Source of the DNA: Candidatus Vecturithrix granuli
Lineage (GTDB): Bacteria; Moduliflexota; Moduliflexia; Moduliflexales; Moduliflexaceae
Length of the DNA: 64,000 nucleotides
Assembly: GCA_000739535.1 (NCBI GenBank)
Contig: DF820480.1
Span: 12,948-76,947, forward strand
Direction of reading: 5' to 3'
The notes beneath the pieces are model-generated. The model saw only the letters and a list, made by a program, of their open reading frames with translations, ran no database searches and was not told where the DNA came from. Both the position numbers and the translations under genes were made by a program. Below are positions 28,711 through 63,111 of this stretch, piece after piece. How positions within the stretch are numbered: the stretch's first letter is position 1; each line of letters starts with the position of its first letter.

Positions 28711-28816
28711 CAGGGCTGTTAAGTTCTCTTATCTTATGAGAATATGAGAATTCTTCGCTCCTACGGCGCGAAGAACCTCTGTGTTTCCAACGAGATAGAA
28801 GAACTTAACAGCCCTG
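28711..28816. repeat. MITE-like palindromic element, CTGTTAAGTTCT family, copy 1
   Basis: Perfect 17-bp terminal inverted repeats (CAGGGCTGTTAAGTTCT at 28711-28727, its complement at 28800-28816) enclose about 70 bp that itself contains short inverted repeats (GAATTCTTCG, GGCGCGAAGAA). Related ends bound the elements at 40694-40810 and 52290-52413, whose interiors are unrelated. It lies between the end of the CRISPR array and the convergent gene ending at 29012. Together with the next element it fills the 363-bp gap 28649-29011, in which I see no gene. Confidence 0.8.
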
Positions 28817-28854
28817 CTTCCGAGCGGATATGTCTGGTAGATTCTTTCATGATA

Positions 28855-28958
28855 TATAGCGATCCTAAATTAGTTGTTGTCTCGACTCCGCTCGACAACT
28901 GGTGCGGACACTGAGCGGAGTTGAAGTGTATGATTACAAATGATTTAGGATCGCTATA
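28855..28958. repeat. Nested palindromic element with 16-bp terminal inverted repeats
   Basis: TATAGCGATCCTAAAT at 28855-28870 is perfectly inverted at 28943-28958. The interior carries the CGACTCCGCTCGAC motif (about 28881-28895) and an inverted variant near 28911-28925. Variants of this motif recur near 49852-49905, 52317-52385 and 63030-63080. The transcript would fold into a long hairpin between two convergent transcription units, so a bidirectional terminator role is possible but not shown. Confidence 0.75.
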
Positions 28959-29011
28959 GTTCAAAGCAGAAACACTGGAGACCACCATTGCGGCGGCCTC
29001 CATCTGACAGA

Positions 29012-30019
29012 TCACGATTTGTAACGTCCGCCGTCGAGTTGATCTTGCAAGGTTTTCAGAGCCTCCCAATCTCCTCTGGCGGCCAAACCCGCTTGTTCGG
29101 GCCAGCTTGCCGGATCCATAGCTTTGAAAATGCCTCCGGCTCCTTCCAAAATGGCCCGTAAACGTTCAACCTCGGTCCGGGCGAGTTGCTCGAAGGTTAA
29201 AATGCCTGCTTCGTTGAGAAGTTGCTCGACTTTCGGTCCAATACCTTCAATCTTACGCAGGTTATCTATTTTTTCCGGGGTCAAACGAACTGCTTCCGGT
29301 TGCAGTTCTGTCTCTGCCACTGGCATCACTTTTTCCGTTGGCGTTTCGGCTTCAACTTCCGGTTCTATTTCTGTCGCTGTTACTGGCGGGGCTTCTTCTG
29401 GCGGTGTTTCAGGCTCAACTACCTGAGGAATTTCCTCTTCAACGGCTGGTGGGGCTTCTATTGGCGATATTACCGGCTCAATTTCTCGGGGAATTTCCTC
29501 TTCTACTGCTTCTTCTGGCGGCGTTTCAGGTTCAACTACCTGAGGAATTTCCTCTTCAATTGCTGTTGGGGCTTCTATTGGCGATATTAGCGGTTGAATT
29601 ATCAGGGAACTTTCCTCTTCTACTTCCGGCGAGGTTTTCGCCATCGGTATTTCTATGCCTGTTTCCGACGGAATCTCTGCCGCAGGAGTTCCTGTTGCCG
29701 CTTGAATTTTCTGCTCCAGGGATGTTATGTGTTGCTGCAATGTTTCAATCCGCGTTTCTGCTGAAGTAAATTTGGCGTTGTAGTCTTCCAGTTCTTCAGT
29801 TTTCTGTTGTAGTTGGGCTTCACAAGCATTGAGTTGTTCCTGCAGGTGTTGATATTGGCTGAGTTGGGTTTCAAGGCGGCGAATCGTATCTTTGGCTTCG
29901 CTCAATTCCCTTTGGAAAGCCAGTTCTTCTTCCTTCCTTTTTTTGGGCATATAGAGTCGAAAAACATAGCCAAGCACCCATCCGATCAAGACTCCGAACA
30001 GAATAAGTAATTCTCTCAT
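29012..30019 (-). CDS. Membrane-anchored coiled-coil protein with C-terminal helix-hairpin-helix domain
   Basis: 335 residues from the ATG at 30019, chosen because a GGGAGGA ribosome-binding site precedes it; the open frame extends further upstream without one. Residues about 1-24 form a single hydrophobic segment (ELLILFGVLIGWVLGYVF). Residues about 30-130 are a Glu/Gln/Leu-rich coiled coil. Residues about 135-235 are a Pro/Glu-rich low-complexity linker that contains a near-duplicated block (EEEIPQVVEPETPPEEA twice). The last 90 residues carry LRKIEGIGPKVEQLLNEAGI, a helix-hairpin-helix fold like the DUF4332 or ribosomal L21-fused domains, which bind DNA or proteins. The architecture (anchor, coiled coil, extended stalk, HHH head) suggests tethering of nucleic acid or a partner to the membrane; that is inference. 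It is monocistronic and converges on the CRISPR array end. Confidence 0.85.
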   Translation of the reverse strand: MRELLILFGVLIGWVLGYVFRLYMPKKRKEEELAFQRELSEAKDTIRRLETQLSQYQHLQEQLNACEAQLQQKTEELEDYNAKFTSAETRIETLQQHITSLEQKIQAATGTPAAEIPSETGIEIPMAKTSPEVEEESSLIIQPLISPIEAPTAIEEEIPQVVEPETPPEEAVEEEIPREIEPVISPIEAPPAVEEEIPQVVEPETPPEEAPPVTATEIEPEVEAETPTEKVMPVAETELQPEAVRLTPEKIDNLRKIEGIGPKVEQLLNEAGILTFEQLARTEVERLRAILEGAGGIFKAMDPASWPEQAGLAARGDWEALKTLQDQLDGGRYKS

Positions 30020-30153
30020 GTGTCCTATCCTCCCTGTCTTTAGAATGTATATATTGATTTCAATCCGACCCAAAATACGACATGCTAACAGCTTATGGCC
30101 GTCTAACACAATCATAAATATTTGCGTACAAGTGTCAACATATTTCTTCTAAG

Positions 30154-30275
30154 TAACTACAAGGATTTCTCATACGCAGGAATTTCAGGGATGTTGTGGA
30201 TATTATACAACACTGCGGTTTTCGTTAAACAAAAGTCAAAGAAAATTCTTGCTCATTCTTCATTTCTTGTAGTTA
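30154..30275. repeat. Palindromic element, TAACTACAAGGATTT family
   Basis: TAACTACAAG at 30154-30163 is inverted at 30266-30275 (CTTGTAGTTA), with partially matching interior arms. The same left end recurs at 31267 and, without TAA, at 47211. It occupies most of the 349-bp divergent gap 30020-30368. The rest of that gap is the AT-rich upstream region of the activase gene. Confidence 0.65.
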
Positions 30276-30298
30276 TTTAAAATTTTATCAAAAATCAC

Positions 30299-30337
30299 TT
30301 GACTTTTAAATGAAATGTTTTCATTTTCAAATGAAAA
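30299..30337 (+). promoter_or_regulatory. Candidate promoter and operator upstream of the glycyl radical enzyme operon
   Basis: A TTGACT -35-like hexamer at 30299-30304 is followed by a perfect 9-bp inverted repeat, TTTTCATTT at 318-326 and AAATGAAAA at 329-337 (30.3 kb numbering). A further AAATGAAA half-site lies at 30308-30315, giving three alternating half-sites. No good -10 hexamer is visible at 17-18 nt spacing. The position, 32 bp before the start codon and overlapping the presumed promoter, suits a repressor site, but no regulator is identified. Confidence 0.45.
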
Positions 30338-30368
30338 TAATCAAATTTATTTAGGAGTGAGCCATTAG

Positions 30369-31259
30369 ATGATTTTTAATATTCAACGATTTTCCACGCA
30401 TGACGGCGCAGGCATTCGCACGGTGATCTTTTTCAAGGGGTGTCCTCTGCGCTGTTCCTGGTGCAGTAATCCGGAAAGCCAATCTTTTGACTATGACCTC
30501 ATGTTTGAGCTGCGCAAATGTATTGGCTGTCTCGAATGCGTCCATCATGCCCAATTCCAGGAATTTACAGCAGATAATGGTCAGGTCAGGCTTCAACGCG
30601 AACGCCTCAAACAGCCTTTTGCCTTTAAAGATGTGTGTCCGGCGAAAGCGATCACGGTAATCGGCGAAGAGAAGAGCGTGGCGGACATCCTGGCAGAAAT
30701 CAGCAAAGACCTTCCGTTTTACAGCAAAAGCAGCGGCGGAGTGACGCTTTCCGGGGGTGAACCGTTTGCCCAACCGGAGATATTATCGGAATTACTGCCG
30801 CAGCTCAAACAGTCAGGAATTCATGTGGCGGTGGAAACCTGCCTGCATGTGCCCTGGAAACAGATCGAAGCGCACCTTCAATACATCGCTCTCTTTTTGG
30901 CGGATTTGAAACATACTGATCCTGAAAAATTTCAGGCTGCCACCGGAGGGAGATTAGACCTGATCATCTCGAATTTCAAACAGTTGGAAACAGCGCAGAT
31001 TCCGGTTGTCGCTCGCATTCCGATCATCCCGGGATTTAACCATAGCGAGGCTGAAATGTACTCTATTATTGATTTTGCCGCCTCATTGACAAACATCCAT
31101 GAGGTTCACTTGATCCCCTATCATGCTCTGGGACGCCATAAATACTCACTGTTAGGTCGAACCTACGAACTTCCGGCCGCATCAGTGTCAGAAGATGAAA
31201 TACAACCATACATTGAATACGCAGAGCACAAAGGGCTTCTTGCCAGTATCGGAGGATAA
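30369..31259 (+). CDS. Glycyl radical enzyme activating enzyme (radical SAM)
   Basis: 296 residues; AGGAG ribosome-binding site 13 bases before the ATG. It uses S-adenosylmethionine and a [4Fe-4S] cluster to place a glycyl radical on its partner enzyme, encoded next. The cluster motif CPLRCSWC supplies Cys25, Cys29 and Cys32 in the CX3CX2C spacing of the PflA family. A small ferredoxin-like insert follows (CIGCLEC, then CPAKAI), giving four cysteines for about one auxiliary cluster, fewer than the two usual in many GRE activases. The SAM-binding GGVTLSGGEP motif is present. Length and layout match the PflA/PflC type. The adjacent enzyme gene makes the assignment firm, although its substrate is unknown. 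Confidence 0.95.
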   Translation: MIFNIQRFSTHDGAGIRTVIFFKGCPLRCSWCSNPESQSFDYDLMFELRKCIGCLECVHHAQFQEFTADNGQVRLQRERLKQPFAFKDVCPAKAITVIGEEKSVADILAEISKDLPFYSKSSGGVTLSGGEPFAQPEILSELLPQLKQSGIHVAVETCLHVPWKQIEAHLQYIALFLADLKHTDPEKFQAATGGRLDLIISNFKQLETAQIPVVARIPIIPGFNHSEAEMYSIIDFAASLTNIHEVHLIPYHALGRHKYSLLGRTYELPAASVSEDEIQPYIEYAEHKGLLASIGG

Positions 31260-31266
31260 TTTTAGA

Positions 31267-31352
31267 TAACTACAAGGATTTTTTATAAGCAAGGATTTCT
31301 TGACTTTTGCTTGATACGCGCGCTTTTTTTCAAACAAGAGTTCAAGAAAGGT
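31267..31352. repeat. Palindromic element, TAACTACAAGGATTT family, second copy
   Basis: It starts with the same TAACTACAAGGATTT end as the element at 30154. The interior has imperfect inverted arms, GCAAGGATTTCTTGA near 31289-31303 and TCAAGAAAGGTATTTGC near 31340-31356. It sits between the activase stop and the glycyl radical enzyme start and accounts for the unusual 107-bp gap inside an otherwise tight operon. Confidence 0.5.
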
Positions 31353-31366
31353 ATTTGCACTTACTT

Positions 31367-33781
31367 ATGTTACAAATTGACGCGAAACCAGGTTTATCAA
31401 CACGCATCCATGCCTTACGCGAACAAGTGTTAAACGCCAGACCCACGGTCTGCCTCGAACGCGCGAAATGTTATACTGAGGCTTACCAGCAACATGCGGC
31501 GAAACCGGTTATTCTGAGACGCGCGTTCGCGCTGGAAAAAACCTTGCAAGAGATGACCGTTTTTATTGATGACGGCGAACTGATCGTGGGCAATCAATCG
31601 TCAAAATTGAGAGCCGCGCCGATCTTTCCAGAATATGCGGTCGAATGGATTCTCAAAGAACTGGATGAATTTGACAAACGTCCCGGGGACGCCTTTTATC
31701 TTTCAGAGGAAACCAAAGAGGAATTAAAGGAGATTTGCGCCTATTGGCACGGAAAAACCACGTTGGAAAAGGGACGCGAACTGATGACGGACACGCTGCG
31801 CGAGATCCATGCGGCCGGCATCATTCGCGCCGAAGGAAATTTAACCTCAGGCGACGGGCATATTGCGGTCAATTTTGAAAAAATCCTGAAACTCGGCATA
31901 CAAGGCTATCTGGACAAAGTGGAATTTAAACGCAAGCAGCTTGACCTGACGGATTGGGCGGATCTCAAAAAATCGCAATTTTATCAGGCCGTGGAAATCA
32001 GCTTACGCGCTCTGCGCGATTTTATCAATCGTTACGCCGCGCTCGCCCTCGCTATGAGCGAACAGGAGAACGATTCAGTACGCAAAGCTGAATTGATCAG
32101 AATTCATGAAAACTGCCGCCAGATCGCCCAGTATCCGCCGCAGGATTTTTATCAGGCCTTGCAGTTGACCTATTTTATCCAGCTTGTGTTGCAAATTGAA
32201 AGCAACGGACATTCAGTGTCCCTGGGACGAATGGATCAGTATCTCTATCCTTTCTACAAACAGGATAAGCAGGAAGAGAAAATCACGGACGATTTTGTCA
32301 TGGAGTTATTAGAGAATACCTGGATCAAACTTCTCTCCTTTTTGAAGATTCGCTCCTGGTCGCACACCCGCTTTTCGGCAGGGAGTCCCTTGTATCAAAA
32401 TGTCACCATCGGCGGTCAAACCGTTGATGGCGAAGACGCGGTAAATGAACTCAGTTATCTTATTCTGCGCTCAGTAGGCGAAACGAAATTAACACAGCCG
32501 AACCTCTCAATTCGCTATCATAAACATATCGACGACGAGTTTATGCTGGAATGTATGCAAGTGATTGAAAAAGGCTTTGGAATGCCAGCCTTTAACAATG
32601 ATGAAATTGTGATCCCGTCTTTTCTCAAGCTTGGAGTTGACAAAGAAGACGCGTATAATTATTCCGCAATCGGCTGTATTGAAGTGGCTGTGCCCGGCAA
32701 ATGGGGCTATCGCTGCACCGGAATGCACTTTCTGAACTTTATGCGTGTGTTGCTTGCAGCCCTGAATGACGGCAAAGATACCATGTCCGGCAAAACCTTT
32801 AAGAAAGGAATTGGCAAATTAACCGACTTTGAGTCCTTTGACGATGTGTTACGAGCCTGGCAACAACAGGTCAAATATTACGCCCGGGCCGGCGTGGCGA
32901 TTGATACGGCCGTGGATACGATCTTAGAGGAAGAAGTGCCCGACGTTCTCTGCTCGGCCTTTGTGGATGACTGCTTGAAACAGGGAAAAACCATTAAAGA
33001 AGGCGGCTCAAAGTACGATTTCATCTCTGGTTTGCAAGTCGGAATTGCGAACCTCGGCAATTCGCTGGCGGCCATCAAAAAGCTGGTGTTTGAGGAACAG
33101 AAAATTTCCAAAGCAGAACTTCTGCGTCATCTGGAAACCAATTTTGAAGGCCTCGAGGGGGAAAAGGTGCGGCAAATTCTGCTGAATTACGCGCCGAAAT
33201 TCGGCAATGATGACAATTATGTGGATATTCTGCTGCGCGAAGCCTATATGGATTTTATCAATGAACTGAAAAAATATCACACCACGCGCTACGGACGCGG
33301 CCCGATTGGATGCCAGTATTACGCCGGAACATCGAGTATTTCCGCCAACGTGCCATCCGGAGCGGTGGTGCCGGCTACGCCAGACGGCAGAAAAGCCTTT
33401 CAACCCCTGGCTGAAGGAAGTTCGCCCTCTTCAGGCACTGATGAACTCGGTCCTACAGCGGTCTTTAAGTCAATTGCCAAACTCCCCACCAACAAGATTT
33501 TGGGCGGCGTGCTCTTGAATCAGAAATTGTCGCCGGCCGCCATTAAACAGGAGCGGGATAAGAAAAAGCTGATTGCGATGCTGCACACGTTTTTCACCGA
33601 TTTAAAAGGTTGGCACGTGCAGTATAATATTGTGGATCGCGTCACGCTGCTCGATGCGAAAAAACATCCTGAGCAATACCGCGATCTGATCGTGCGGGTC
33701 GCCGGCTATTCCGCATTTTTCACAACCTTAGCGCCGGATACCCAGGATGATATTATCGCCCGAACTGAGCATACCTTATGA
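31367..33781 (+). CDS. Glycyl radical enzyme of the PFL/glycerol dehydratase superfamily, substrate unassigned
   Basis: 804 residues from the ATG at 31367. An upstream TTG at 31307 in the same frame lies in a palindromic repeat and would add 20 residues unlike the family, so I reject it. The N-terminal part (MLQIDAKPGLSTRIHAL, then NARPTVCLERA) is typical of the dehydratase/PFL2 group. The active-site cysteine is in YSAIGCIE (Cys437) and the radical glycine in RVAGYSAFF (Gly780), 24 residues from the C terminus as usual. The sequence after GCIE (VAVPGKWGYRC) does not match the GCVEP pattern I would expect of glycerol dehydratase or choline lyase, so no substrate is given. It is coupled to the next gene by an ATGA overlap. 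The enzyme is oxygen-sensitive, implying anaerobic growth. Confidence 0.93.
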   Translation: MLQIDAKPGLSTRIHALREQVLNARPTVCLERAKCYTEAYQQHAAKPVILRRAFALEKTLQEMTVFIDDGELIVGNQSSKLRAAPIFPEYAVEWILKELDEFDKRPGDAFYLSEETKEELKEICAYWHGKTTLEKGRELMTDTLREIHAAGIIRAEGNLTSGDGHIAVNFEKILKLGIQGYLDKVEFKRKQLDLTDWADLKKSQFYQAVEISLRALRDFINRYAALALAMSEQENDSVRKAELIRIHENCRQIAQYPPQDFYQALQLTYFIQLVLQIESNGHSVSLGRMDQYLYPFYKQDKQEEKITDDFVMELLENTWIKLLSFLKIRSWSHTRFSAGSPLYQNVTIGGQTVDGEDAVNELSYLILRSVGETKLTQPNLSIRYHKHIDDEFMLECMQVIEKGFGMPAFNNDEIVIPSFLKLGVDKEDAYNYSAIGCIEVAVPGKWGYRCTGMHFLNFMRVLLAALNDGKDTMSGKTFKKGIGKLTDFESFDDVLRAWQQQVKYYARAGVAIDTAVDTILEEEVPDVLCSAFVDDCLKQGKTIKEGGSKYDFISGLQVGIANLGNSLAAIKKLVFEEQKISKAELLRHLETNFEGLEGEKVRQILLNYAPKFGNDDNYVDILLREAYMDFINELKKYHTTRYGRGPIGCQYYAGTSSISANVPSGAVVPATPDGRKAFQPLAEGSSPSSGTDELGPTAVFKSIAKLPTNKILGGVLLNQKLSPAAIKQERDKKKLIAMLHTFFTDLKGWHVQYNIVDRVTLLDAKKHPEQYRDLIVRVAGYSAFFTTLAPDTQDDIIARTEHTL

Positions 33782-34500: not shown

Positions 34501-34513
34501 GGAGGAGACAACG

Positions 34514-37247: not shown

Positions 37248-37277
37248 CAGGAGTGCGACGCGGTCGTCGCACTCCTG
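37248..37277. repeat. REP-like palindrome, GGAGTGCGACG family
   Basis: Perfect 13-bp arms (CAGGAGTGCGACG and its complement) separated by CGGT, starting two bases after the stop of the flavoprotein gene. Related copies are at 37578-37600, 37606-37679 and 40719-40740, and degenerate forms lie near 41819 and 41869. Together with the next copies it flanks a RAYT transposase remnant. Confidence 0.85.
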
Positions 37278-37294
37278 AGAAAGAAATCAAGACT

Positions 37295-37579
37295 ATGATG
37301 AAGCAACACCCACACACGCCGAAACATTTGTTTTTGGATGATACGCCCTATTTCATCACTGCTGCGATTTATCAGAAACGTCGCTTGATGGCAGCGAAGA
37401 CATTTCTCTTGTATAATCCCGTCAAACACGGCTATGTGAGCGATCTACGGAACTATGTCACATCCAATTTTCACGAAGCCTTTAAGGCGTTTGGGCGAGA
37501 CGGTTTAGCCGAACAATTCAGGACATATTCCGAGTATAAAACTTTACGTATCACAGAAGCCTTAGACGACGACTTTTAG
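37295..37579 (+). pseudogene. Deleted REP-associated tyrosine transposase (RAYT) gene
   Basis: 94 residues from the ATG at 37295. The N terminus (HTPKHLFLDDTPYFITAAIY) and C-terminal part (YNPVKHGYVSDLRN, then FRTYSEYKTLRI) are both recognisable RAYT (Y1 transposase, IS200-like) sequence. They are joined directly after RRLMAAKTFLL: the central domain with the MPNHVH-type metal-binding histidines, about 60-80 residues, is gone. The frame stays open, so a short protein could still be made, but it cannot be an active transposase. The gene is bracketed by GGAGTGCGACG palindromes, the REP-type partner these enzymes mobilise, so this is the relic of a transposase-plus-REP unit inserted into the biosynthetic cluster. 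Confidence 0.75.
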
Positions 37580-37679
37580 GAGTGCGACGCGGTCGTCGCC
37601 AAGGACTCAGGAGTGCGACGCGGTCGTCGCATCGCTGCACAGCAGCGACTAGCAGCGACGACCGCGTCGCACTCCTGAG
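37578..37679. repeat. REP-like palindrome pair, GGAGTGCGACG family
   Basis: One single copy (37578-37600) is followed by a large palindrome with perfect 25-bp arms at 37606-37630 and 37655-37679; the loop contains a secondary GCTGCACAGCAGC repeat. The right arm ends nine bases before the ATG of the next gene. The paired, inverted layout is that of a REPIN. Confidence 0.88.
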
Positions 37680-37687
37680 TGTTCCGA

Positions 37688-40693: not shown

Positions 40694-40810
40694 CAGGGTA
40701 AATCTGTTAGGTTCTCTCAGGAGTGCGACGCGGTCGTCGTATCAGAAATGCCGCTGCGACGACCTGGATGCTTTTCATGGTGAAAAATTCTTGAGAACGT
40801 AACAGCCCTG
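40694..40810. repeat. Composite palindromic element, CTGTTAAGTTCT family, copy 2
   Basis: The left end (CTGTTAGGTTCTC, 40704-40716) and right end (GAGAACGTAACAGCCCTG, 40793-40810) are inverted and match the ends of the element at 28711. The interior holds a half copy of the GGAGTGCGACG REP-like repeat (40719-40740), an example of one repeat family lying inside another. Confidence 0.7.
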
Positions 40811-40854
40811 CCCGTTTACGGGGGGAATGAGGGGGATATTGCGTAAGTCCTGTT

Positions 40855-47200: not shown

Positions 47201-47210
47201 TCCTGTGAAA

Positions 47211-47309
47211 CTACAAGGATTTCGTGTAGGAAGGATTCTCAAAGGCATGGTTCGATGTCACACCGACCAATTCTCCCTCAGGAATCCTTCCTACAGAAAA
47301 TCCTTGTAG
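47211..47309. repeat. Palindromic element, CTACAAGGATTT family, third copy
   Basis: Arms at 47211-47238 and 47281-47309 (CTACAAGGATTTC..., GTAGGAAGGATTC) pair over about 28 bp with one or two mismatches; the loop is 42 bp. The outer end is shared with the elements at 30154 and 31267. Confidence 0.8.
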
Positions 47310-47408
47310 TTTGATAATGCCAGGTGAGCCGTCCACTCGAAATGATTCCTTTGCAGCAGAGCAGCTCTGGTGACTCTGTCGCAATATTTACAAAAGAGGC
47401 GTGTAATC

Positions 47409-48404: not shown

Positions 48405-48423
48405 AAGAAGGGAGTCAAGCATA

Positions 48424-48453
48424 GAAACCGGGTTTTTCGAAAAACCCGGTTTC
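48424..48453. repeat. Perfect 30-bp palindrome between the two permease genes
   Basis: GAAACCGGGTTTTTC is followed immediately by its exact complement, with no spacer. The same AACCGGGTTT arms form the hairpin at 54858-54890. It lies 20 bp upstream of the DppC-like gene's ribosome-binding region. Confidence 0.9.
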
Positions 48454-48472
48454 TTACACTGGAGAGAGTGGA

Positions 48473-49678: not shown

Positions 49679-49698
49679 TAACACTTATAGTGCTTTGG

Positions 49699-49804
49699 GA
49701 CAGAAGTTCTTACTATCAGGATTTGTCGGACCCTGTCGGACAAGTCTGAGTTATTCGACAAGGCCACCTCAGTCAAGGATTTCCGAGGTAGTAAAACTTC
49801 TGTC
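49699..49804. repeat. Palindromic element after the DppC-like gene
   Basis: GACAGAAGTTCTTACTATC (49699-49717) is inverted at 49785-49804 (core AGTAAAACTTCTGTC) with a few mismatches. The interior has a tandem GTCGGACCCT/GTCGGACAAG and a CGACAAGG inversion. It fills the first part of the 307-bp gap 49679-49985. Confidence 0.7.
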
Positions 49805-49815
49805 TAAGAGCAATA

Positions 49816-52098: not shown

Positions 52099-52289
52099 GA
52101 GATAAGAAAAACGCCGTAAAAGTCCCGAAGGGACGGAATATGGTAGCCCAGGGTGTCAGTGAAAATCCGACGTGTGTACCCTCCCCTCTCCGCTGAATTA
52201 GGGGAGGGATGGGGTCAGGCGCTCCCTCCCGTAATTTAGGGGAGGGATGGGGTGGGGTCAGGAGTTTTTTCCGGTAGCTCTAAGCAGGC
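52099..52289. other. Intergenic repeat tract after the transporter operon
   Basis: No gene seen. GTCCCGAAGGGAC at 52122-52134 is a short palindrome followed by TATGGTAGCCCAGGGTGTCA, a tract resembling a common dispersed bacterial repeat. Two near-direct copies of TTAGGGGAGGGATGGGGT lie at 52198-52215 and 52236-52253, each preceded by CCCTCCC-type sequence that can pair with it. Confidence 0.55.
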
Positions 52290-52413
52290 AGAGCTGTTAA
52301 GTTCTGCCATACTCCTCATCTCGACTTCGCTCGATGACCGGAAGACCCGACGTCGAGCGGAGTGGACGTCGAGCGAAGTCGAGACGACTTTAGGCGAGAA
52401 TTGAACAGGCCTG
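52290..52413. repeat. Composite palindromic element, CTGTTAAGTTCT family, copy 3
   Basis: Left end CAGAGCTGTTAAGTTCT (52290-52306); right end 52397-52413 matches its complement at 13 of 17 positions. The interior is a separate palindrome built from CTCGACTTCGCTCGATGACC (52319-52338) and inverted CGAGCGAAGTCGAGA (about 52369-52383). It lies just past the stop of the TIM-barrel gene. Confidence 0.7.
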
Positions 52414-53371: not shown

Positions 53372-53434
53372 CTGGAGTGCGAAAGTTCTACTTTCGCCCG
53401 CGTTACGCGCGAAAGTAGAACTTTCGCACTCCAG
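53372..53434. repeat. Palindrome with perfect 26-bp arms in the divergent GH4 promoter region
   Basis: Arms at 53372-53397 and 53409-53434, each containing CTGGAGTGCGAAAG and TACTTTCGC, enclose an 11-bp loop. It sits in the 240-bp gap between the divergent TIM-barrel and GH4 genes, where promoters of both must lie; I see no clear -35/-10 pair there. Confidence 0.9.
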
Positions 53435-54857: not shown

Positions 54858-54890
54858 AAAAACCGGGTTTCTTCAAGAAACCCGGTTTTT
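54858..54890. terminator. Terminator-like hairpin between GH4 and DUF4432 genes
   Basis: AAAAACCGGGTTTCT and its complement (15-bp arms) enclose a 3-nt loop; the hairpin is flanked by A-runs and T-runs on both sides, so it could terminate on either strand. Its core is the same as the palindrome at 48424, so it is also a member of a dispersed repeat family. Confidence 0.7.
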
Positions 54891-56159: not shown

Positions 56160-56276
56160 AGTAGTACTTTGTCAACATTTGAGTGACTGGTTTGTAGTAA
56201 ACGCTTTAGCGTTTAAACGCCGCTTAAGCGGCTACTACGAACCCGTCGGTCAAACTTTGACAAAACAGTAGTATTG
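56160..56276. repeat. Nested palindromic element, GTAGTA/CGCTTTAGCG family
   Basis: The outer arms (from about 56160 and ending about 56276) share TTTGTCAA and GGTTTGTAGTA-type sequence, inverted with mismatches. Inside is a cleaner palindrome, 56194-56238: GTAGTAAACGCTTTAGCG and GGCTACTAC. The inner unit is repeated at 59705-59780. It occupies the middle of the 433-bp gap 56073-56505; a further CCCTTTCAGGG palindrome lies near 56120. No gene is seen in the gap. Confidence 0.75.
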
Positions 56277-56505: not shown

Positions 56506-57780
56506 ATGAAAAAGCTCAGTATTCTCGGACTTATTCTGGTCATGATGTGTGTCGGGGTCGCGCAAGTGTATGCGGCTGATGAATTCATCATCTTCCATTA
56601 TTGGACGGCGGGCGGCGAGAAGGAAGCGATTGATGAACTCTTTAAATTGTTCAAAGAAAAACATCCCGATGTGAATATCCTTGAAAATCCTGTGGCAGGC
56701 GGCGGCGGAGCCAATATGCTCGCCGTGCTGATGGGCAATCTTGAATCCGGCAATCCGCCCGATATTTTCCAGGATCATCAGGGCAATCAGCAGAAGAGCT
56801 ATATTGACGCCGGCTATCTGGAAGAGATCAATGCGGTCTGGGAAAAAACCAATTTTGAAAGCCGCATCAACCCGGCCTGGGTCAAAAGCTTGAAATTTGA
56901 CGGCAAGGTGTATTCCGTGCCGATCAATGCGCACCGGACAAACTGGTTGTGGTACAATAAACCGTTGTTTGAAGAACTCGGTTTGACCCCACCGGAAACC
57001 TACGATGCCCTGCTTGAAACCTGCAAAAAGATCAAAGAAGCCAAACCGGATATCGCTCCGCTCTCTTTAGGCACGCGTGAGAAAGTCTGGGCCACGTATA
57101 TTTATGATATGTGCTTGGTTGCCGCTGGCGGCCCTGATTTTTATGAAAAGGCAAATACCGGGATGATCGATTTCAAAACAGATCCGACCTTCCGCGACGC
57201 CATGGAAAAATATAAAGCCTTGATTCCCTATTTCTATCCTTTCCATGCCACCAAAAGTTGGGATGAAGCCGGCGCGTTACTGAAAGACGGGCAAGCGGCG
57301 ATGTATTGGATGGGCGACTGGGTGCTGGGTTACTATCTGGCAATTGGGATGGAGCCTGAGAAAGATTTCAGCGCTACCGCAATTCCCAAAGACCTGTGGT
57401 TTGGTCATGCCGATACCTTCCCCTTAGCCAACGGCGCACCGCATAAAGATCTGGCGTTAAGCTGGCTTGAAATCTGCATGTCGAATGAAGGCCAGAAAAA
57501 CTTCAACCTCAAAAAAGGCTCTGTGACCATCGTCAATGATGTGCCGCCGGATGTGTATCCTGATCCATACCGCCAACGCAGCGCGAAAGATCTGGCCTCC
57601 TTACGGGCCGCGATTGACGGCTATCATGGCGGCATTATGACCCCGGCCTTTGGGGATGATCTGCAAGACATCCTGACGCAATTCCTGACAGACGGCGATG
57701 TTGATTCCGCGATTGCAGAAATTGCCGCCTCAGCCGAACGGAACGAGATCAAAGAAAAGTGCAGTTGGTTCTGGCAATAA
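56506..57780 (+). CDS. Sugar ABC transporter substrate-binding protein (family 1)
   Basis: 424 residues with an AGGAGGGAG ribosome-binding site. The signal peptide is residues about 1-23 (MKKLSILGLILVMM to VYA-AD). The mature protein begins with FIIFHYWTAGGEKEAIDELF, the typical opening of carbohydrate-binding family-1 proteins. PPDIFQDHQGNQQKSYIDAG, VYSVPINAHRTNWLWYNK and GQAAMYWMGDWVLGYY are further family motifs, with aromatic residues suited to sugar stacking. With the two permeases it makes a MalEFG-type importer. No dedicated ATPase is encoded nearby, so a shared MsmK-like ATPase elsewhere is needed. Confidence 0.93.
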   Translation: MKKLSILGLILVMMCVGVAQVYAADEFIIFHYWTAGGEKEAIDELFKLFKEKHPDVNILENPVAGGGGANMLAVLMGNLESGNPPDIFQDHQGNQQKSYIDAGYLEEINAVWEKTNFESRINPAWVKSLKFDGKVYSVPINAHRTNWLWYNKPLFEELGLTPPETYDALLETCKKIKEAKPDIAPLSLGTREKVWATYIYDMCLVAAGGPDFYEKANTGMIDFKTDPTFRDAMEKYKALIPYFYPFHATKSWDEAGALLKDGQAAMYWMGDWVLGYYLAIGMEPEKDFSATAIPKDLWFGHADTFPLANGAPHKDLALSWLEICMSNEGQKNFNLKKGSVTIVNDVPPDVYPDPYRQRSAKDLASLRAAIDGYHGGIMTPAFGDDLQDILTQFLTDGDVDSAIAEIAASAERNEIKEKCSWFWQ

Positions 57781-57806
57781 GAGGTTTGGAGAGATAGATA
57801 AACTTA

Positions 57807-57997
57807 GCCCGCGAAACACGCGAAATACGCGAAAATTTTTCAAAGGATCAAAAGTTTTTGATTCTCTGTGAATTCCCGTACTGCTGGAGTGGCAAAGCTT
57901 GTCTTTGCCGTCCACTAGCTGCGTCGGCAAAGACACTCCAGCAGCGCAAAAGTTGCTAAAGGGTCAGATTTTCGCGTATTTCGCGTGTTTCGCGGGC
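57807..57997. repeat. Large nested palindrome with perfect 30-bp arms
   Basis: The arms at 57807-57836 and 57968-57997 (GCCCGCGAAACACGCG onward) are perfectly inverted. Between them lies a second palindrome at 57881-57944, with CTGCTGGAGTG/CACTCCAGCAG outer arms and GTCTTTGCC/GGCAAAGAC inner arms. It separates the binding-protein gene from its first permease and ends 6 bp before that permease's ATG, replacing any ribosome-binding site. Confidence 0.92.
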
Positions 57998-58003
57998 AAT
58001 ACC

Positions 58004-58876
58004 ATGAAACATTATAAAATTTACGGATTTCTTTTTTTAACGCCGGTTCTCATCGGGGTTGGCATTCTGTATTTGATGATCATCTGGAACGTCATCGCCG
58101 CGTTTACCGAATGGCAGGGACTGAAATCAACCTGGAACTTTATCGGTCTGAAATATTTTCTGGATTTGTTCTCCCTGCGGCGGTTCTGGGTGAATATCTG
58201 GAATAATTTTTTATGGTTACTCCTTTTTATCGGCCCCACAACGCTGGTGGGTTTTGTGCTGGCCTATCTGTTTTCCAATATCGGACGCGCTGAATATCTG
58301 CTCAGGCAGGTCTTTTTATTTCCAATGGCCCTGTCGTTTATCATCACCGGCGTGCTTTGGTCCTGGATGTATGATCCGGGTTCGGGTCTGATTAATACGA
58401 TCTTAAAAAGTTTTGGCATGAACACCGCCCATCTGGGCTGGCTGGCGGACCCGAAACTGTCGATCTATTGCATGATCTTTACCGGATTCTGGCAGTATGT
58501 CGGCTTTGCGATGGTCATCTACATCGGCGCCATCCGCGGACTTTCCACTTCAATGATTGAAGCGGCCAAAATTGACGGGGCCGGCCGTTTCCGCATTCTC
58601 TTTCAAATCATTTTCCCCAATGTGGGGCATGGCACACTGATTTGCACGACCATGTTAGGCATTACTACCGTCAAAGTCTTTGATCTTGTCTGGATTATGA
58701 CCGGCGGCGGACCTGGAATCAAGACCGAAGTGCTCCCGTACCTGATGTATCGCCTGAGTTTCAGTCAGCGTAATCTCGGCATGGGCGCGGCAACCAGTAT
58801 CGTCATTTTAATCTTAGCCAGTTTTCTGGTCATTCCCTATTCACTCTGGGCCATGAAAAGGTGGGTAAACACATGA
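58004..58876 (+). CDS. Sugar ABC transporter permease (MalF/UgpA type)
   Basis: 290 residues from the ATG at 58004; the in-frame extension to 57899 is repeat sequence and is rejected. No Shine-Dalgarno is visible because the palindrome ends just upstream. Membrane segments lie at about 8-32, 72-95, 105-125, 155-175, 205-225 and 260-280. The coupling motif is EAAKIDGAGRFRILFQIIFP, the EAA loop of MalF-type permeases. It overlaps the next permease by ATGA. Confidence 0.92.
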   Translation: MKHYKIYGFLFLTPVLIGVGILYLMIIWNVIAAFTEWQGLKSTWNFIGLKYFLDLFSLRRFWVNIWNNFLWLLLFIGPTTLVGFVLAYLFSNIGRAEYLLRQVFLFPMALSFIITGVLWSWMYDPGSGLINTILKSFGMNTAHLGWLADPKLSIYCMIFTGFWQYVGFAMVIYIGAIRGLSTSMIEAAKIDGAGRFRILFQIIFPNVGHGTLICTTMLGITTVKVFDLVWIMTGGGPGIKTEVLPYLMYRLSFSQRNLGMGAATSIVILILASFLVIPYSLWAMKRWVNT

Positions 58877-59697
58877 AAGAACGCCGTTTTACACGTATCA
58901 CCGTGGTGCTTTTGCTCCTGTTGTCCATCCCCTGGTTACTTCCGGTTTATGCTATGTTAACGACTTCTGTCAAAACCCAGGCCGAAGTCGCCGGTCAGCA
59001 ATATTTACAACTCCCGGAAACGCTCAATTGGAGCAACTATGTCGTGGCTTTCAAAGCTTTGAAACAGGGCTTACTGAACAGTATTATTATCACAATTCCA
59101 GCGACCTTCTTGTGTATTTTTTTTGGTTCTCTGGGCGGCTATTTTCTCACCATGTTCGATTTTAAACCGTCGCAGCTCATCTTTTTCGGAATTGTGGTGG
59201 CCTCCTTTCTGCCTTACCAGATCGTCGTTATTCCTATTACCCGTTTCCTGAGCATGTTCAATCTGCTCAATTCGTATTCGGGCTTGATTCTGATTTACGT
59301 GATTCTGAATTTACCGATGGGCACGCTGATTACTGCGACTTTTTTCATGAAGATGCCCAAAAGTATTCTGGAAGCGGCGATTATTGACGGCTGCAAACCG
59401 ATTGCTTTTTACCATCGAATTCTGATTCCGCTTTCGATTCCGGGCTTGATTTCCGCCGCGATTCTGGTGTTTGTGCAAGTTTACAATGAATTTCTGTTAG
59501 GCATTGTCGTCACCCGGGGCCCGCAGGTCAAGCCGGTCATGCCAATTCTGGCAGAACTCAAAGGCTCGCAAATTGCGCAATGGCATATCCAAATGGCCGG
59601 GGCCGTCATTACCGCCTTAATTCCGCTGGCGGTGTTCATCTTTTTATCAAATTATTTCATCGCAGGCTTAACGGTCGGCTACGCCAGCGAAGAATAA
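58873..59697 (+). CDS. Sugar ABC transporter permease (MalG/UgpE type)
   Basis: 274 residues from the ATG at 58873, inside the previous stop; the GTG at 58861 is less likely. Six membrane segments at about 10-30, 70-92, 103-125, 135-158, 180-205 and 240-262. The coupling loop is ILEAAIIDGCKPIAFYHRI, and MLTTSVKTQAEV after the first segment is typical of MalG-type subunits. It partners the previous permease. Confidence 0.93.
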   Translation: MKERRFTRITVVLLLLLSIPWLLPVYAMLTTSVKTQAEVAGQQYLQLPETLNWSNYVVAFKALKQGLLNSIIITIPATFLCIFFGSLGGYFLTMFDFKPSQLIFFGIVVASFLPYQIVVIPITRFLSMFNLLNSYSGLILIYVILNLPMGTLITATFFMKMPKSILEAAIIDGCKPIAFYHRILIPLSIPGLISAAILVFVQVYNEFLLGIVVTRGPQVKPVMPILAELKGSQIAQWHIQMAGAVITALIPLAVFIFLSNYFIAGLTVGYASEE

Positions 59698-59704
59698 GAG
59701 GTTT

Positions 59705-59780
59705 GTAGTAGCCGCTTTAGCGGCGTCATGAAACGCTAAAGCGTTTACTACGAGCGAACGCTAAAGCGTTTACTACGAGC
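59705..59780. repeat. GTAGTA/CGCTTTAGCG repeat, second copy
   Basis: GTAGTAGCCGCTTTAGCGGC at 59705-59724 is followed by two direct copies of CGCTAAAGCGTTTACTACGA (59734-59753, 59760-59779) that are inverse to the first arm. The inner unit of the element at 56194 is the same. It fills the 88-bp gap before the ROK kinase gene, whose ATG follows within six bases. Confidence 0.8.
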
Positions 59781-59785
59781 AAAAA

Positions 59786-60745
59786 ATGAAACAACAATTA
59801 TGCGGCGTGGATTTTGGGGGAACCAAGCTGGCAGTTGTCCTGACTGACCGCGAGGGGAAGATTCATGATAAACACGTGGTTTATGATCATGTGAGCAGAA
59901 CGGATCGCGAAATTGCCTGCTATATCGTACAACTCATCAAAGAGAGGCTTGCTGCAAACGCCCTGGATGAAACCGAACTGGAAGGCATCGGCATTTGTTT
60001 CCCCGGGCATCTGCGTTTTCGGGAAGGCGTGACGATCACTACGTCCAATCTGCCGGGATTCAAGAATTTTCCGCTGCGCCAGGCCATTCAAGACCATTTT
60101 CAGGTGCGTGTGATGCTCGATAACGATGCCAACGCGCAGACCTATGCGGAATTCCTGTACGGGGCCGGTAAAGGCCACGACAGTATGTTATTTATGACGA
60201 TCAGCACCGGCATTGGCGGCGGTATCGTGATCGACAGAAGATTGTATCGCGGTATGACCGGCACGGCCGGAGAATTCGGTCATATCATTATTGACCCACA
60301 CAGCCCGATCCGTTGCGGTTGCGGCAATTATGGCTGTTTGATGGGCTGCGCCAGCGGACTTTCCCTGCCCCAGGTGTTTCAATATTATCGCCAACAAGGA
60401 ATGCAAAGTACACTGGGAATTTCCGATCCGTCAGCCTTTAACGGACATCTGCTCAAAATCGGTCTGAACCAGCATGATCCCTTATGTGAACAGGTGATGG
60501 CAGATTATGCTCATGCTATCGGCATCGGAGTCTATAATCTATTTCAAATTTTTAACCCACCTCTGATCGTATTGGGCGGTGGATTAATGAAATTAGGGGA
60601 TCGTTTTTTTCAAAAAATCGAGGCCACTTTCAGGGAGCTTGCTAAAGATATGATCTACGATGATATAAAGCTTGCAGTTTCGGCCCTTGGGGATGACGCC
60701 GGCCTGATTGGAGCTGCAGCCTTACTCTTAGAACATCATGCATGA
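59786..60745 (+). CDS. ROK family sugar kinase (glucokinase-like)
   Basis: 319 residues, no N-terminal DNA-binding domain, so a kinase rather than a ROK repressor. ATP-binding GVDFGGTKLA is at the N terminus, catalytic Asp is in LDNDANA, and STGIGGGIV is the second phosphate-binding motif. The zinc site CGCGNYGC is intact, but the residue after it, usually Glu in CXCGXXGCXE, is Met (LMGCASG). That Glu contacts the sugar in glucokinases, so substrate preference may differ. GGGLMKLGD is the adenosine motif. It probably phosphorylates the sugar released by the GH4 enzyme. It overlaps the DeoR gene by 8 bases. Confidence 0.92.
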   Translation: MKQQLCGVDFGGTKLAVVLTDREGKIHDKHVVYDHVSRTDREIACYIVQLIKERLAANALDETELEGIGICFPGHLRFREGVTITTSNLPGFKNFPLRQAIQDHFQVRVMLDNDANAQTYAEFLYGAGKGHDSMLFMTISTGIGGGIVIDRRLYRGMTGTAGEFGHIIIDPHSPIRCGCGNYGCLMGCASGLSLPQVFQYYRQQGMQSTLGISDPSAFNGHLLKIGLNQHDPLCEQVMADYAHAIGIGVYNLFQIFNPPLIVLGGGLMKLGDRFFQKIEATFRELAKDMIYDDIKLAVSALGDDAGLIGAAALLLEHHA

Positions 60746-61481
60746 ACGACAAAAAGCTATTCTTAATCTTATTCTTGAGCAGAAAGAAGTTTCGGTCACG
60801 CTGCTCTCAGAGCGATTAGGCGTCTCCGGGGTCACGATCCGCCAGGATTTGAATTATCTTGAAGAACAAGGCTTTATCAAGCGGGTTCACGGCGGAGCGG
60901 TGTTAAACGAAACTGATGATATTTCGACCCGCATGGTCTTTAATTACAAACAAAAGCTCAAAATCGCCCAGAAAGCAGCCACTCTCGTCGAAGATGGCGA
61001 AACTGTACTGATCGAAGCCGGTTCCACCAATGCCCTGGTCGCCAGAGCCTTGATTGAAAAAAAAGGGATCACGATTATCACACCGAATGTCTTTATCGCC
61101 CGCGAACTCAGAGAATACCTGGATACCCCGGTCGTGCTCTTAGGGGGATTATATCAGCATCAAAGCGAAAGTCTGGTGGGCAAAATAACCAAACTGTGCA
61201 TCGATCATCTCAATTTTCATAAAGCCTTTATCGGCGTTGATGGATTTTCGCAAACGGCCGGATTTACCGGAAAAGATATGATGCGCGCCGAAATCATCGC
61301 CTATATCGCCGCCAAAAGTCCGCAAGTGATCGTCGTCACCGATTCGAGCAAATTTGGCAAAACCCAACTGACCACCTATTTTGGCCCGCAGGATGTGGAT
61401 TATGTGATTACCGATGAAGGTATTCCCGCCGACGATAAAACCTTTCTTGAAGCTGCCGGAGTCACGGTGCTGCTGACGTAA
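60738..61481 (+). CDS. DeoR-type transcriptional regulator
   Basis: 247 residues. N-terminal winged helix: RQKAILNLILEQKEVSVTLL with SERLGVSGVTIRQDLNYLEE as helix-turn-helix and IKRVHGGAV as the wing, the DeoR signature. The C-terminal DeoR sensor domain has IEAGSTNALVARAL for sugar-phosphate binding, LLGGLYQHQSESLVG, FIGVDGFS and VVTDSSKFG. It is a likely local repressor of this sugar operon, responding to a phosphorylated sugar made by the ROK kinase next to it. The dyad at 56356-56388 is a candidate site. Confidence 0.94.
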   Translation: MHERQKAILNLILEQKEVSVTLLSERLGVSGVTIRQDLNYLEEQGFIKRVHGGAVLNETDDISTRMVFNYKQKLKIAQKAATLVEDGETVLIEAGSTNALVARALIEKKGITIITPNVFIARELREYLDTPVVLLGGLYQHQSESLVGKITKLCIDHLNFHKAFIGVDGFSQTAGFTGKDMMRAEIIAYIAAKSPQVIVVTDSSKFGKTQLTTYFGPQDVDYVITDEGIPADDKTFLEAAGVTVLLT

Positions 61482-61516
61482 CAAAATCCTTGCACCATGA
61501 CCTCTGCCGATTCAAT

Positions 61517-62347
61517 ATGAACGCAAAGCCCTTCAAGCTGGCGATGATCCAAATGGAAGTGAAAGGCGGCGAAAAAGCGTGGAATGTGCGCCATGCCGTT
61601 GAATTGATCGCCGAAGCGGCCTCAAATAAGGCTGATGTTGTTCTCCTGCCTGAGTGCATGGATTTAGGTTGGACGCACCCATCGAGCCGCAGCATGGCAG
61701 AAGAAATTCCAGATGGCGCGCCATGTCAGGAACTGATTGAATCAGCCAAAATGCACGCGCTGTACGTGTGCGCTGGTCTGACGGAGAAATCTGGTAAGGA
61801 TGTGTATAATTCTGCCATTCTCATAGATAAACAGGGCCGAGTCCTTTGTAAACATCGTAAGTTGCATGAGCTTGATATTGGCCATCCCTATTATGCGCAG
61901 GGCGATCGCTTGAATGTTGCCCACACAGAATTCGGGACCTTCGGCCTGATGATTTGCGCCGACGGATTTGCCAAAAACCTTGTGCTCACCCGTTCTCTTG
62001 GCTATATGGGGGCTGATGTGATCTTGTCGCCTTGCGCCTGGGCTGTGGATGCCAACCATGATAATCATGCCGAGCCTTACGGCGATCTCTGGCGCAATTC
62101 ATACATGCCTGTGGCAAAAGAGTTTTCCCTGGCGATTTTCGGCGTAAGTAATGTCGGATATATCAACGCTGGCCCCTGGCAAGGCAGAAAATGTATCGGC
62201 TGTTCGCTTGGCATCAACGCTCTCGGAGAAGAAATCCTGCAAGGCCCCTATGGAGTTGACGCAGAGTGCATTCTCTATGTGGATGTGACGCCGACTCAAA
62301 GACCTGCAAGGGGAACAGGATGGGATGACTTCTGGCTGCGAAAATAG
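61517..62347 (+). CDS. Carbon-nitrogen hydrolase (nitrilase superfamily)
   Basis: 276 residues from the ATG at 61517; the frame opens earlier (61490), but MNAKPFKLAMIQME is the family start. The catalytic triad is visible: Glu46 in LLPECMD, Lys115 in KHRKLHE and Cys147 in MICADGF. The region after the cysteine (GADVILSPCAWAVDANHDNH) and the C-terminal ALGEEILQGPYG fit amidases or N-carbamoyl hydrolases. It is the last gene of the sugar operon; an amide-containing substrate such as an acetamido sugar derivative would tie it to the pathway, but nothing in the sequence proves this. Confidence 0.9.
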   Translation: MNAKPFKLAMIQMEVKGGEKAWNVRHAVELIAEAASNKADVVLLPECMDLGWTHPSSRSMAEEIPDGAPCQELIESAKMHALYVCAGLTEKSGKDVYNSAILIDKQGRVLCKHRKLHELDIGHPYYAQGDRLNVAHTEFGTFGLMICADGFAKNLVLTRSLGYMGADVILSPCAWAVDANHDNHAEPYGDLWRNSYMPVAKEFSLAIFGVSNVGYINAGPWQGRKCIGCSLGINALGEEILQGPYGVDAECILYVDVTPTQRPARGTGWDDFWLRK

Positions 62348-62373
62348 ATGGAGTATGCAGCAGAAACTCATTC

Positions 62374-62437
62374 GGATTCCCCTCCCAGGAGGGGAATGTG
62401 TGCTCCTCTGTGGATCAATTCCCCTCCTGGGAGGGGT
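62374..62437. repeat. Pair of CCCCTCC palindromes after the nitrilase gene
   Basis: ATTCCCCTCCCAGGAGGGGAAT (as two arms of about 10 around CAG) at about 62377-62397 and AATTCCCCTCCTGGGAGGGG at 62418-62437 are each palindromic and can also pair with each other. Similar CCCTCCC/GGGAGGG tracts lie at 52180-52255. No gene is seen in 62348-62611. Confidence 0.7.
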
Positions 62438-62611
62438 GAGGGGTGGGTTCTCTTGCCCATCCGGCAATGGATGTTCAAAAAGAAACGATAACCGTTCCCA
62501 TTATCTCCCTGCCTACCTCGTAACGGTGGATAGAACGCCTACGGCGAACAAAAAGCAAGGGTGAGGACATGCTGTTCCATGTTGCAAAATTATCTTTTTT
62601 CGCTTGACACA

Positions 62612-62640
62612 TTGACAAATACGGACAATTAAAGGATAAT
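62612..62640 (+). promoter_or_regulatory. Strong sigma-70-type promoter
   Basis: TTGACA at 62612-62617, a 17-bp spacer and GATAAT at 62635-62640 (five of six to TATAAT). A second TTGACA overlaps just upstream at 62604-62609. Transcription would start near 62647, so the GTG there cannot be a start codon with a leader; the real start is downstream at 62713. Confidence 0.75.
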
Positions 62641-62712
62641 CATGATTTGGTCACATCTATATGTGGGTGCGCGTATATGATTCGCCGCCATGCTATCAGA
62701 GGGGAAATGGGT

Positions 62713-63003
62713 ATGGTCACAATTCCCGAACGTATTGCCGAACAGATTGAATTTTTAGAACAGGGTGAGTATCCTCTCAATCTGAAACTCGAGCGAATTA
62801 TCCAACACGAGTATCGCCGGAAATTGGTTCGTTATCAACACGCCGATCGCCTGTTCGGAAAGAAATACCAGATGGATTTTGAGACGTTTCGCCGTACGAA
62901 TATGGTCGCCCAACTCAATGACTCCTTCGAGGTTGAAACGGATGCTTCAGATCGGGAATTCGCTATAGGTGACATCCGGACCATGACCAGAAAAATTCGG
63001 TAG
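62713..63003 (+). CDS. Small acidic/basic protein, antitoxin-like
   Basis: 96 residues from the ATG at 62713, nine bases after AGAGGGG. I do not recognise it with certainty. The layout, a basic helix (LERIIQHEYRRKLVRYQHADRL as two pieces), then KKYQMDFETFRRTNMV and a C-terminal acidic part with VETDASDREFAIGDIRTM, recalls short antitoxins found before DUF6516-type toxins, where EVESDAMEWE-like segments occur. No matching toxin follows: the next sequence is a palindromic element, and the stop codon TAG (63001-63003) lies inside that element's left arm. It has its own strong promoter. Confidence 0.6.
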   Translation: MVTIPERIAEQIEFLEQGEYPLNLKLERIIQHEYRRKLVRYQHADRLFGKKYQMDFETFRRTNMVAQLNDSFEVETDASDREFAIGDIRTMTRKIR

Positions 63004-63111
63004 TGGTTAAATGGGAAGTGATGCGTTCCCTGAGCGAAGTCGAAGGGAACAGTGAGCGGCTCGTTTCGACTTCGCTCAACGAGCGGGCATCACTTCCCAT
63101 TTAACCACTAC
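63000..63111. repeat. Nested palindromic element with perfect 25-bp arms, GTAGTGG family
   Basis: Arms at 63000-63024 and 63087-63111 (GTAGTGGTTAAATGGG onward) are perfect. Inside are two further hairpins: GTTCCCT/AGGGAAC at 63025-63050 and CTCGTT/AACGAG at about 63060-63083, both carrying the CGACTTCGCTC motif. Outer end and flank (CCAAAAATT) match the element at 49816. Confidence 0.92.

Follow-up and report, generated by a model that had tools for sequence, protein, structure and literature searches.

Nested palindromes in the gene gaps of Candidatus Vecturithrix granuli are probably miniature transposons wrapped around REP-like or other palindromic cores

Why do the gaps between the genes of one bacterium contain palindromes inside palindromes? 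The question is raised by a stretch of 64,000 nucleotides from the Candidatus Vecturithrix granuli UASB270 genome (contig DF820480.1; G000:C4:12948-76947), hereafter the window. In its last part, the original prediction described intergenic gaps packed with nested palindromic elements of several families. We conclude that the nested elements are very probably chimeras. Their outer arms appear to be those of miniature inverted-repeat transposable elements (MITEs) derived from insertion sequences (ISs). Their cores are pairs of hairpins resembling repetitive extragenic palindromic (REP) sequences or REP doublets forming hairpins (REPINs), or other GC-rich palindrome pairs, and the whole would be copied as a unit. 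Unprefixed coordinates below are window positions. Those with a C prefix lie on other contigs of the same genome, which comprises 8,384,694 bp in 21 contigs (N50 597,372, contig C14) and has been placed in candidate phylum KSB3 (PMC4312070).

We counted inverted repeats with perfect arms of at least 13 bp and a spacer of at most 250, using three dinucleotide shuffles as the control. Positions 28701-64000, the last 35.3 kb of the window, contain 15 compared with 0, 0 and 0 after shuffling. Counts elsewhere, which include several pairs per tandem cluster, were 148 in C20:1-400000 (shuffles 2, 3 and 3) and 202 in C18:1-400000 (1, 3 and 2). Most lie outside long open reading frames (ORFs; 9 of 15, 102 of 148 and 156 of 202, respectively), although ORFs cover about 86% of the DNA. 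Overlaps were merged across four 400-kb stretches and the window, with the window before 28600 excluded as a clustered regularly interspaced short palindromic repeat (CRISPR) array. This gave 481 palindromic loci, 90 with an inverted repeat inside the loop of another. By arm similarity, 529 of 819 inverted repeats fall into 42 groups of at least three, some of which are tandem REP clusters counted many times over, and 226 are singletons. Hence, the gaps are indeed packed with palindromes, most belonging to dispersed families. Rfam returned 0 matches in the window at gathering score.

Three classes of element are mixed together: loopless AAACC-type palindromes, REP/REPIN-like hairpins and composites with palindromic cores. 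The list given in the original prediction includes elements that are truly nested but also takes in unnested ones, the terminator-like palindromes at 48423 and 54858 among them. A second palindrome is present inside each of the four elements said to contain one (40694, 52290, 56160 and 57807). Perfect arms of 13-30 bp were claimed for five named examples and found in three (57807-57836/57968-57997, 30 nt, 100%; 37605-37630/37655-37680, 26 nt, 100%; 48423-48438/48439-48454, 16 nt, 100%). The other two have one arm mismatch each (53372-53400/53406-53434 and 62996-63024/63087-63115; both 29 nt, 97%). The impression of perfection is partly a detection effect, because, once copies are gathered by arm similarity, the two arms of one copy are hardly more alike (88% identity in family F1, 85% in family F2) than arms of different copies (83% and 84%).

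Composites are mostly 100-130 bp long, with medians of 102-128 in eight of nine outer families, and the core is near the middle. The 26-bp arms of F1 (GGTAGTGGTTAAATGG.AAGTGATGC) have 201 matches genome-wide (105 + 96, at most 2 mismatches; control 0). Copies are mostly 114 bp with a GAGCGAAGTCGA doublet, while longer ones carry a GGAGTGCGACG or GGAGTGCGCAAGC pair. The F2 arms (CAGGGCTGTTAAGTTCT) have 199 (99 + 100, at most 1 mismatch; control 0) and enclose cores of several unrelated kinds, among them TCTCGACTTCGCTCGA and CCCCCGCAAGCGGGGG doublets and GGAGTGCGACG and GGAGTGCGAAAG pairs. Hence, the elements are not unique to single loci. Depending on the mismatch limit (3 or 4), copy numbers for F1 and F2 are 37 and 30 or 39 and 33.

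Target duplications point to mobility in several outer families. An exact 8-bp duplication flanks F1 in 20 of 39 pairs, and at least 6 bp are duplicated in 23 of 39 (5% in mismatched flank pairs). For F2, at least 6 bp are duplicated in 6 of 33 pairs (0.5% in mismatched flank pairs). The F2 duplication is about 11 bp, and at least 9 of 12 flanking bases agree directly in 14 of 30 copies (4.6% by chance). Inverted agreement at this level occurs in 6 of 30, and agreement in either orientation in 17 of 30 (7.4% by chance). It is as if the target repeat of some copies changed after insertion. The flanks of the F2 element at 28711-28816 (CTTCTGAGCGG and CTTCCGAGCGG) resemble an 11-bp target duplication with one difference. 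Duplications of 6-7 bp were found in 4 of 8 F11 copies (0.29 expected) and 2 of 3 F8 copies, and of 5 bp in 2 of 3 F12 copies. F1, F2, F8, F11 and F12 are short, multi-copy and non-coding, with terminal inverted repeats and a target duplication of constant length, as MITEs are.

The association between arms and cores shows in both directions. An inner inverted repeat (score at least 10) is present in 90 of 100 usable composite copies, compared with 0.25 expected from shuffled interiors. This count covers nine outer families, leaving out F9, F14 and the GCCCG family, and 100 of 103 pairs after those with N runs or interiors shorter than 15 bp were dropped (F1 2, F4 1). The ten copies without an inner repeat are mostly worn-looking or just under threshold. 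Conversely, an outer inverted repeat surrounds 52 of the 131 REP-like cores left after overlapping ones were merged; for intergenic controls, the figure is 147 of 5690. We also considered general co-evolution of the two arms but dropped it. F1 has 30 matched double changes where 10.5 are expected, but one-arm differences in 112 cells, and F2 has 6 where 4.8 are expected. Arm correction is therefore at best weak.

Many cores resemble REPs. Hairpins with a GGAG or GTAG foot number 371, compared with 110 in the shuffle, and REPIN-like inverted pairs number 67, compared with 0. Cores with the GTAG foot have the hairpin foot, the inverted pairing and the high copy number of REPINs (GTAGCGCGAAACTC, 13 pairs; GTAGCGCGAAATTC, 5 pairs; plus others). 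The genome yields 12 Y1 transposase matches. An intact REP-associated tyrosine transposase (RAYT) is present at L065 (NF047646 94.5 bits, cut-off 80), with six GGAG hairpins around the gene, on both sides. The window has an internally deleted relic of such a gene, flanked by REPs of a sister family. The relic falls under the NF047646 cut-off (E 6e-5), and a Pfam search of its ORF (37253-37579) gave 0 matches.

Full-length ISs provide the counterpart for the outer arms. Among 10 DDE_Tnp_1 loci in the genome, four have ends matching outer families (Table 1). Judged by eye, F4 composites and the corresponding IS are dissimilar beyond their ends. A full-length IS was also sought between F2 arms, where + and - arms 1-3 kb apart enclose ORFs that by eye are unlike transposases. 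A further IS-like element, L151 (C15:354385-355020), has 24-bp ends and an apparent 10-bp target duplication TTATTCTCAC; we noticed no miniature form of it.

The elements had also been described as if inserted into each other. Target duplications of outer families, together with pairs of occupied and empty homologous sites, bear this out. Scanning these loci (481) by split alignment yielded 203 candidate events, which fall at 51 distinct inserts. Many candidates are internal REPIN differences or N runs, so we relied only on events aligned individually. An F2 element lies within an F11 core (C17:364426-364537), and an empty homologue is found near C17:371450-371592. One F1 arm contains F11 with TAAATG on both sides (C18:396429-396690) and another contains F8 (C20:147004-147255). 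F1 sits within another repeat at C17:286463-286581, where the alignment is weaker. An F2 element at C20:277818-277936 lies within a CCCCCG palindrome; its right flank aligns poorly in one comparison and more clearly in another.

The best interpretation of these data is as follows. The outer arms would be terminal inverted repeats of MITEs, moved in trans by DDE transposases, and each insertion would duplicate a target stretch whose length is specific to the family. The cores would be REP/REPIN-like pairs of hairpins such as RAYTs process, or other GC-rich palindrome pairs. With an outer pair around a core, the whole composite could be copied through its outer ends, and composites may also insert into one another. 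Most likely, the union arose when a REP entered the loop of a MITE-like hairpin, or when a REP became flanked by IS ends. This route by which cores first got inside the arms is one that we infer, as are the transposase for each family and the recency of movement. The core might also help the MITE to move. An extruded hairpin could act as a hinge, pairing ends about 100 bp apart in the transposase complex. We suggest this because most outer families are about 100-130 bp with the core near the middle, and regard it as rather doubtful. If true, REP-like sequences and MITEs would be partners, the MITE gaining a hinge and the REP a second spreading route.

Related copies in other genomes show the same arms with varied interiors. 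A contig-collection scan for the perfect F2 arm pair gave one record, Desulfobacteraceae bin_101, in a collection that may leave out the window's own genome. This metagenome-assembled genome has 28 F2 arms (control 2). Of its eight complete pairs, five contain an inner inverted repeat scoring at least 10, two contain weaker hairpins (score 8) and one contains none. The GTAG foot of the weaker hairpins is on the printed strand in one and on the reverse strand in the other. Among 289 genomes, the exact F2 arm matches solely in the window's own genome and in G003, from the same order. The G003 elements (L159, L161 and L165) are 133 bp long and located in GC-rich palindromes. Since copies in bin_101 and G003 vary in this way, the F2 outer family occurs with a REP-like core, with another hairpin or with no palindromic core. 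As a separate observation, F2 elements in three genomes (28711-28816 in the window, L126 and L161) frequently sit in GC-rich palindromes. No match to F5 was found in plasmids.

Several results weigh against reading the composites as MITEs around REP-like cores. None of the three complete G003 elements has an inner palindrome, so outer arms do not invariably go with a core. Duplications of at least 5 bp were absent from F3 (0 of 4), F4 (0 of 5), F5 (0 of 6) and F10 (0 of 7). We therefore call these families MITE-like only, numbers being too small to judge duplications of 2-3 bp. No IS partner was found for F1, F2, F3, F5, F8, F10 or F14 among DDE_Tnp_1 loci, the only type searched, in this draft genome. 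The family linked to the RAYT has a GGAG foot rather than the canonical GT[AG]G described in the available part of PMC6006769, and is accordingly termed REP-like. Neither a GTAG nor a GGAG foot is present in the cores of F11 and F12, or in some of those of F2. No GTAG hairpin (stem at least 7) was found near the 12 Y1_Tnp loci, which reach about 1.5 kb to each side. Hairpins of family D (AACTACAAGGATT) have target duplications in 1 of 69 cases, against 0.87 expected. Finally, the occupied and empty sites compared are homologous sites; the nearest genome available for comparison is of the same family only and about 69% identical over short pieces.

Could the outer palindromes be immobile? RAYTs might have placed REPINs into pre-existing palindromes that served as passive targets, as is implied in a 2013 paper (PMC3733652). 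The hairpin at C18:147515-147625 fits this account, having a REP exactly in its loop where the homologous hairpin at C18:355070-355170 has other loop DNA, and so do the several unrelated cores within F1 and F2 arms. However, F1 composites of 114 bp are found repeatedly with one and the same core, many of them between 8-bp duplications of their own. Therefore, this composite moved as a unit. Four outer families also have IS copies with the same ends. We thus consider passive targeting unlikely. Nesting produced by chimeric joins or contamination during assembly or binning is barely credible. The bin has an estimated contamination of 10.75%, and N runs occur inside some repeats. However, many scaffolds carry the same composites free of N and flanked by target duplications. 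Moreover, in the part of PMC4312070 available, the published genome is described as mate-pair curated, with contamination revised to 1.9%.

Alternatively, palindromes could be maintained for RNA-level functions, such as termination or mRNA stability, and nesting could be a by-product of selection for long hairpins. The loopless AAACC palindromes (AAACCGGGTTT type) suit this idea best. There are 106 copies in the searched DNA, including those at 48423 and 54858, and they are not nested. They follow the nearest upstream stop codon at a median of 18 bp, and 69 of 90 do so within 60 bp. The 94 noncoding copies include 31 in convergent gaps, which make up 13.5% of intergenic bases, and 11 in divergent gaps, which make up 22.8%. 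Paired positions are nearly free of mismatches (2 per 819). Being placed just downstream of genes and depleted between divergent genes, as intrinsic terminators are, these palindromes look like bidirectional terminators. RNA-level selection is likely for this class. When all inverted repeats in tandem gene context are taken together, GU mismatches modestly outnumber AC mismatches (178 against 120), and F2 is rare in divergent gaps (1 of 29 noncoding copies, against 22.8% of intergenic bases). Some families may possibly be under such selection outside the MITE arms.

For the arms themselves, the picture is different. Read in the direction of transcription, mismatches are 21 GU and 18 AC in F1, and 10 GU and 8 AC in F2. 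Gene context reveals no orientation bias for F1 (21 tandem, 4 convergent, 7 divergent). For F10 and for F11, half of the noncoding copies (3 of 6 each) fall in divergent gaps. RNA-level selection is thus without support in MITE arms, because F1 and F2 have no GU excess and F1, F10 and F11 have no bias towards gene 3' ends. Hence, the proposal that perfect arms imply strong RNA-level selection is not supported here, and nested palindromes that look perfect by eye do not, on their own, argue for it. Target duplications and full-length IS partners demand a mobile element. As a general explanation, RNA function is therefore hard to hold, and we judge it improbable.

Elements in the window are collected in Table 1 with the IS partners. 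The F5 family has 6 copies in the searched DNA, and a query with positions 57780-58020 matched 84 places.

Table 1. Palindromic elements of the window and full-length ISs of the same genome whose ends match outer families
Feature	Position or locus	Strand	Length	Description
F2 composite	28711-28816			CAGGGCTGTTAAGTTCT arms; small hairpin core, under the inner-repeat threshold (score at least 10)
F5 composite	28855-28958			TATAGCGATCCTAAAT arms; TCGACTCCGCTC / GAGCGGAGTTGA doublet core, under the same threshold
GGAG-footed REP-like hairpin	37248-37270			GGAGTGCGACGCGGTCGTCGC; directly upstream of RAYT relic
RAYT relic, internally deleted	37295-37576	+		52-61% identity to intact L065 copy (tblastn, two pieces, best E 5e-17)
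GGAG-footed REPIN-like inverted pair	37605-37680			Plus single REP at 37578-37599
F2 composite	40700-40810			GGAGTGCGACG REPIN-like core, second REP partly lost; left arm degenerate
F12 element, right part	40811-40852			Ends TGCGTAAGTCCTG; adjoins F2 element 40700-40810; left part not seen
Family D hairpin	47209-47311			AACTACAAGGATT; family without detected target duplication
Loopless palindrome	48423-48454			AGAAACCGGGTTTTTC; terminator-like class, unnested
F2 composite	52289-52413			TCTCGACTTCGCTCGA doublet as core
REPIN-like hairpin, free	53372-53434			GGAGTGCGAAAGTTCTACTTTCGC
Loopless palindrome	54858-54890			AAAAACCGGGTTTCTT; terminator-like class
F14 composite	56161-56271			TTTGTCAACATTTGA arms; GTAG-footed REPIN-like core; five more places in genome, 94-97% identical
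Composite	57807-57997			GCCCGCGAAACACGCG arms, recurrent; GGAGTGGCAAAG REPIN-like core
GTAG-footed REPIN-like cluster	59705-59776			
Palindrome doublet	62379-62436			CCCCTCCCAGGAGGGG
F1 composite	62999-63112		114 bp	26-bp arms GGTAGTGGTTAAATGGGAAGTGATGC; GAGCGAAGTCGA doublet core; 8-bp target duplication AAAAATTC on both sides
IS5 family	L148		867 bp	Ends match F4
IS5-like, under NCBIfam cut-off	L152		1084 bp	Ends match F9
IS701 family	L153		1131 bp	Ends match F12
IS701-like, under cut-off	L156		1354 bp	Ends match F11

Other repeats were noted in passing. A family with TAGTGCTTTGGGACAGAAGTT arms occurs at 49688-49815, with relatives at C17:343369 and C17:164436. Family D hairpins have many variants, often within larger mosaics with GTAG REPINs. 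The likeness of their inner arms (0.69 within a copy, 0.50 between copies) was set aside, as only 12 of 69 pairs reach 0.9 and many are probably mispaired. Tandem runs of a 15-bp CTTCGACTCCGCTCC unit face inverted runs across about 100 bp at C18:1-272 and C18:374803-375002. The window opens with a CRISPR array (7-28648; 28.6 kb), in which a 37-nt repeat occurs 386 times in exact form, and palindrome-rich DNA begins directly after it. The passages of PMC4312070 available bring up palindromes solely in connection with CRISPR, and its genome table gives 550 repeats in 5 arrays. This array would therefore hold most of them.

Short mobile DNA abounds in the gene gaps of this wastewater bacterium, often with one kind of element wrapped around another. 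If composites do move by their outer ends, the spread of REPs and REPINs gains a second, testable route: hitch-hiking in IS-driven miniature transposons. With several outer families, varied cores and matching ISs, this one genome is well suited to finding out if the core is cargo or contributes to function.

It had been suggested that no described family explains the nesting. This is not supported: the cores resemble REPs or REPINs, the outer arms resemble MITEs, and long palindromes enclosing REP dimers had already been published for A. variabilis, H. neapolitanus and T. roseum (PMC3733652, section 7). In a literature search without most subscription journals, REPs nested in MITEs or palindromes were described only there. 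Each half of the composite is hence a known kind of element, and their wholesale pairing is barely described. What appears to be new is the identification of outer palindromes as transposon ends, and the combination of several outer families with interchangeable cores in one genome. As in the 2013 survey, REP pairs lie within longer palindromes, here with an inner palindrome in 90 of 100 copies. That paper treats the outer palindrome as a target and says that the topic lacks detailed investigation. In contrast, target duplications flank several outer families here, the ends of four are shared with ISs, and a single outer family encloses many different cores. In two of its three genomes, no outer palindrome was seen without a REP, for which joint movement offers one reason.

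As far as the available parts of PMC2817692 and PMC6006769 describe REP/REPIN-RAYT systems, these share inverted pairs of short hairpins, a four-base foot, multiple intergenic copies and a family flanking a RAYT. Unlike them, the RAYT-linked foot is GGAG, not GT[AG]G, and many copies are enclosed by MITE ends. Bacterial MITEs such as Correia/NEMIS, RUP and Nezha (PMC3733652; PMC2817692, in part) are likewise short, non-coding and multi-copy, with IS-like terminal inverted repeats and target duplications. Here, by contrast, several unrelated outer families of one genome usually have a REPIN-like or other palindrome pair inside. MITEs, PATEs and small mobile repeats of Haloquadratum walsbyi are also often inserted into other mobile repeats, 192 times by the total of the published table. 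From the available part of PMC3119063, separate elements there mostly strike IS605-type palindromic elements, whereas here the nest is the repeated unit. A further parallel is the IStron, a transposon fused to a second type of element that it spreads (PMC4227781, in the part available). In IStrons that partner is a group I intron; here it is a REP-like palindrome.

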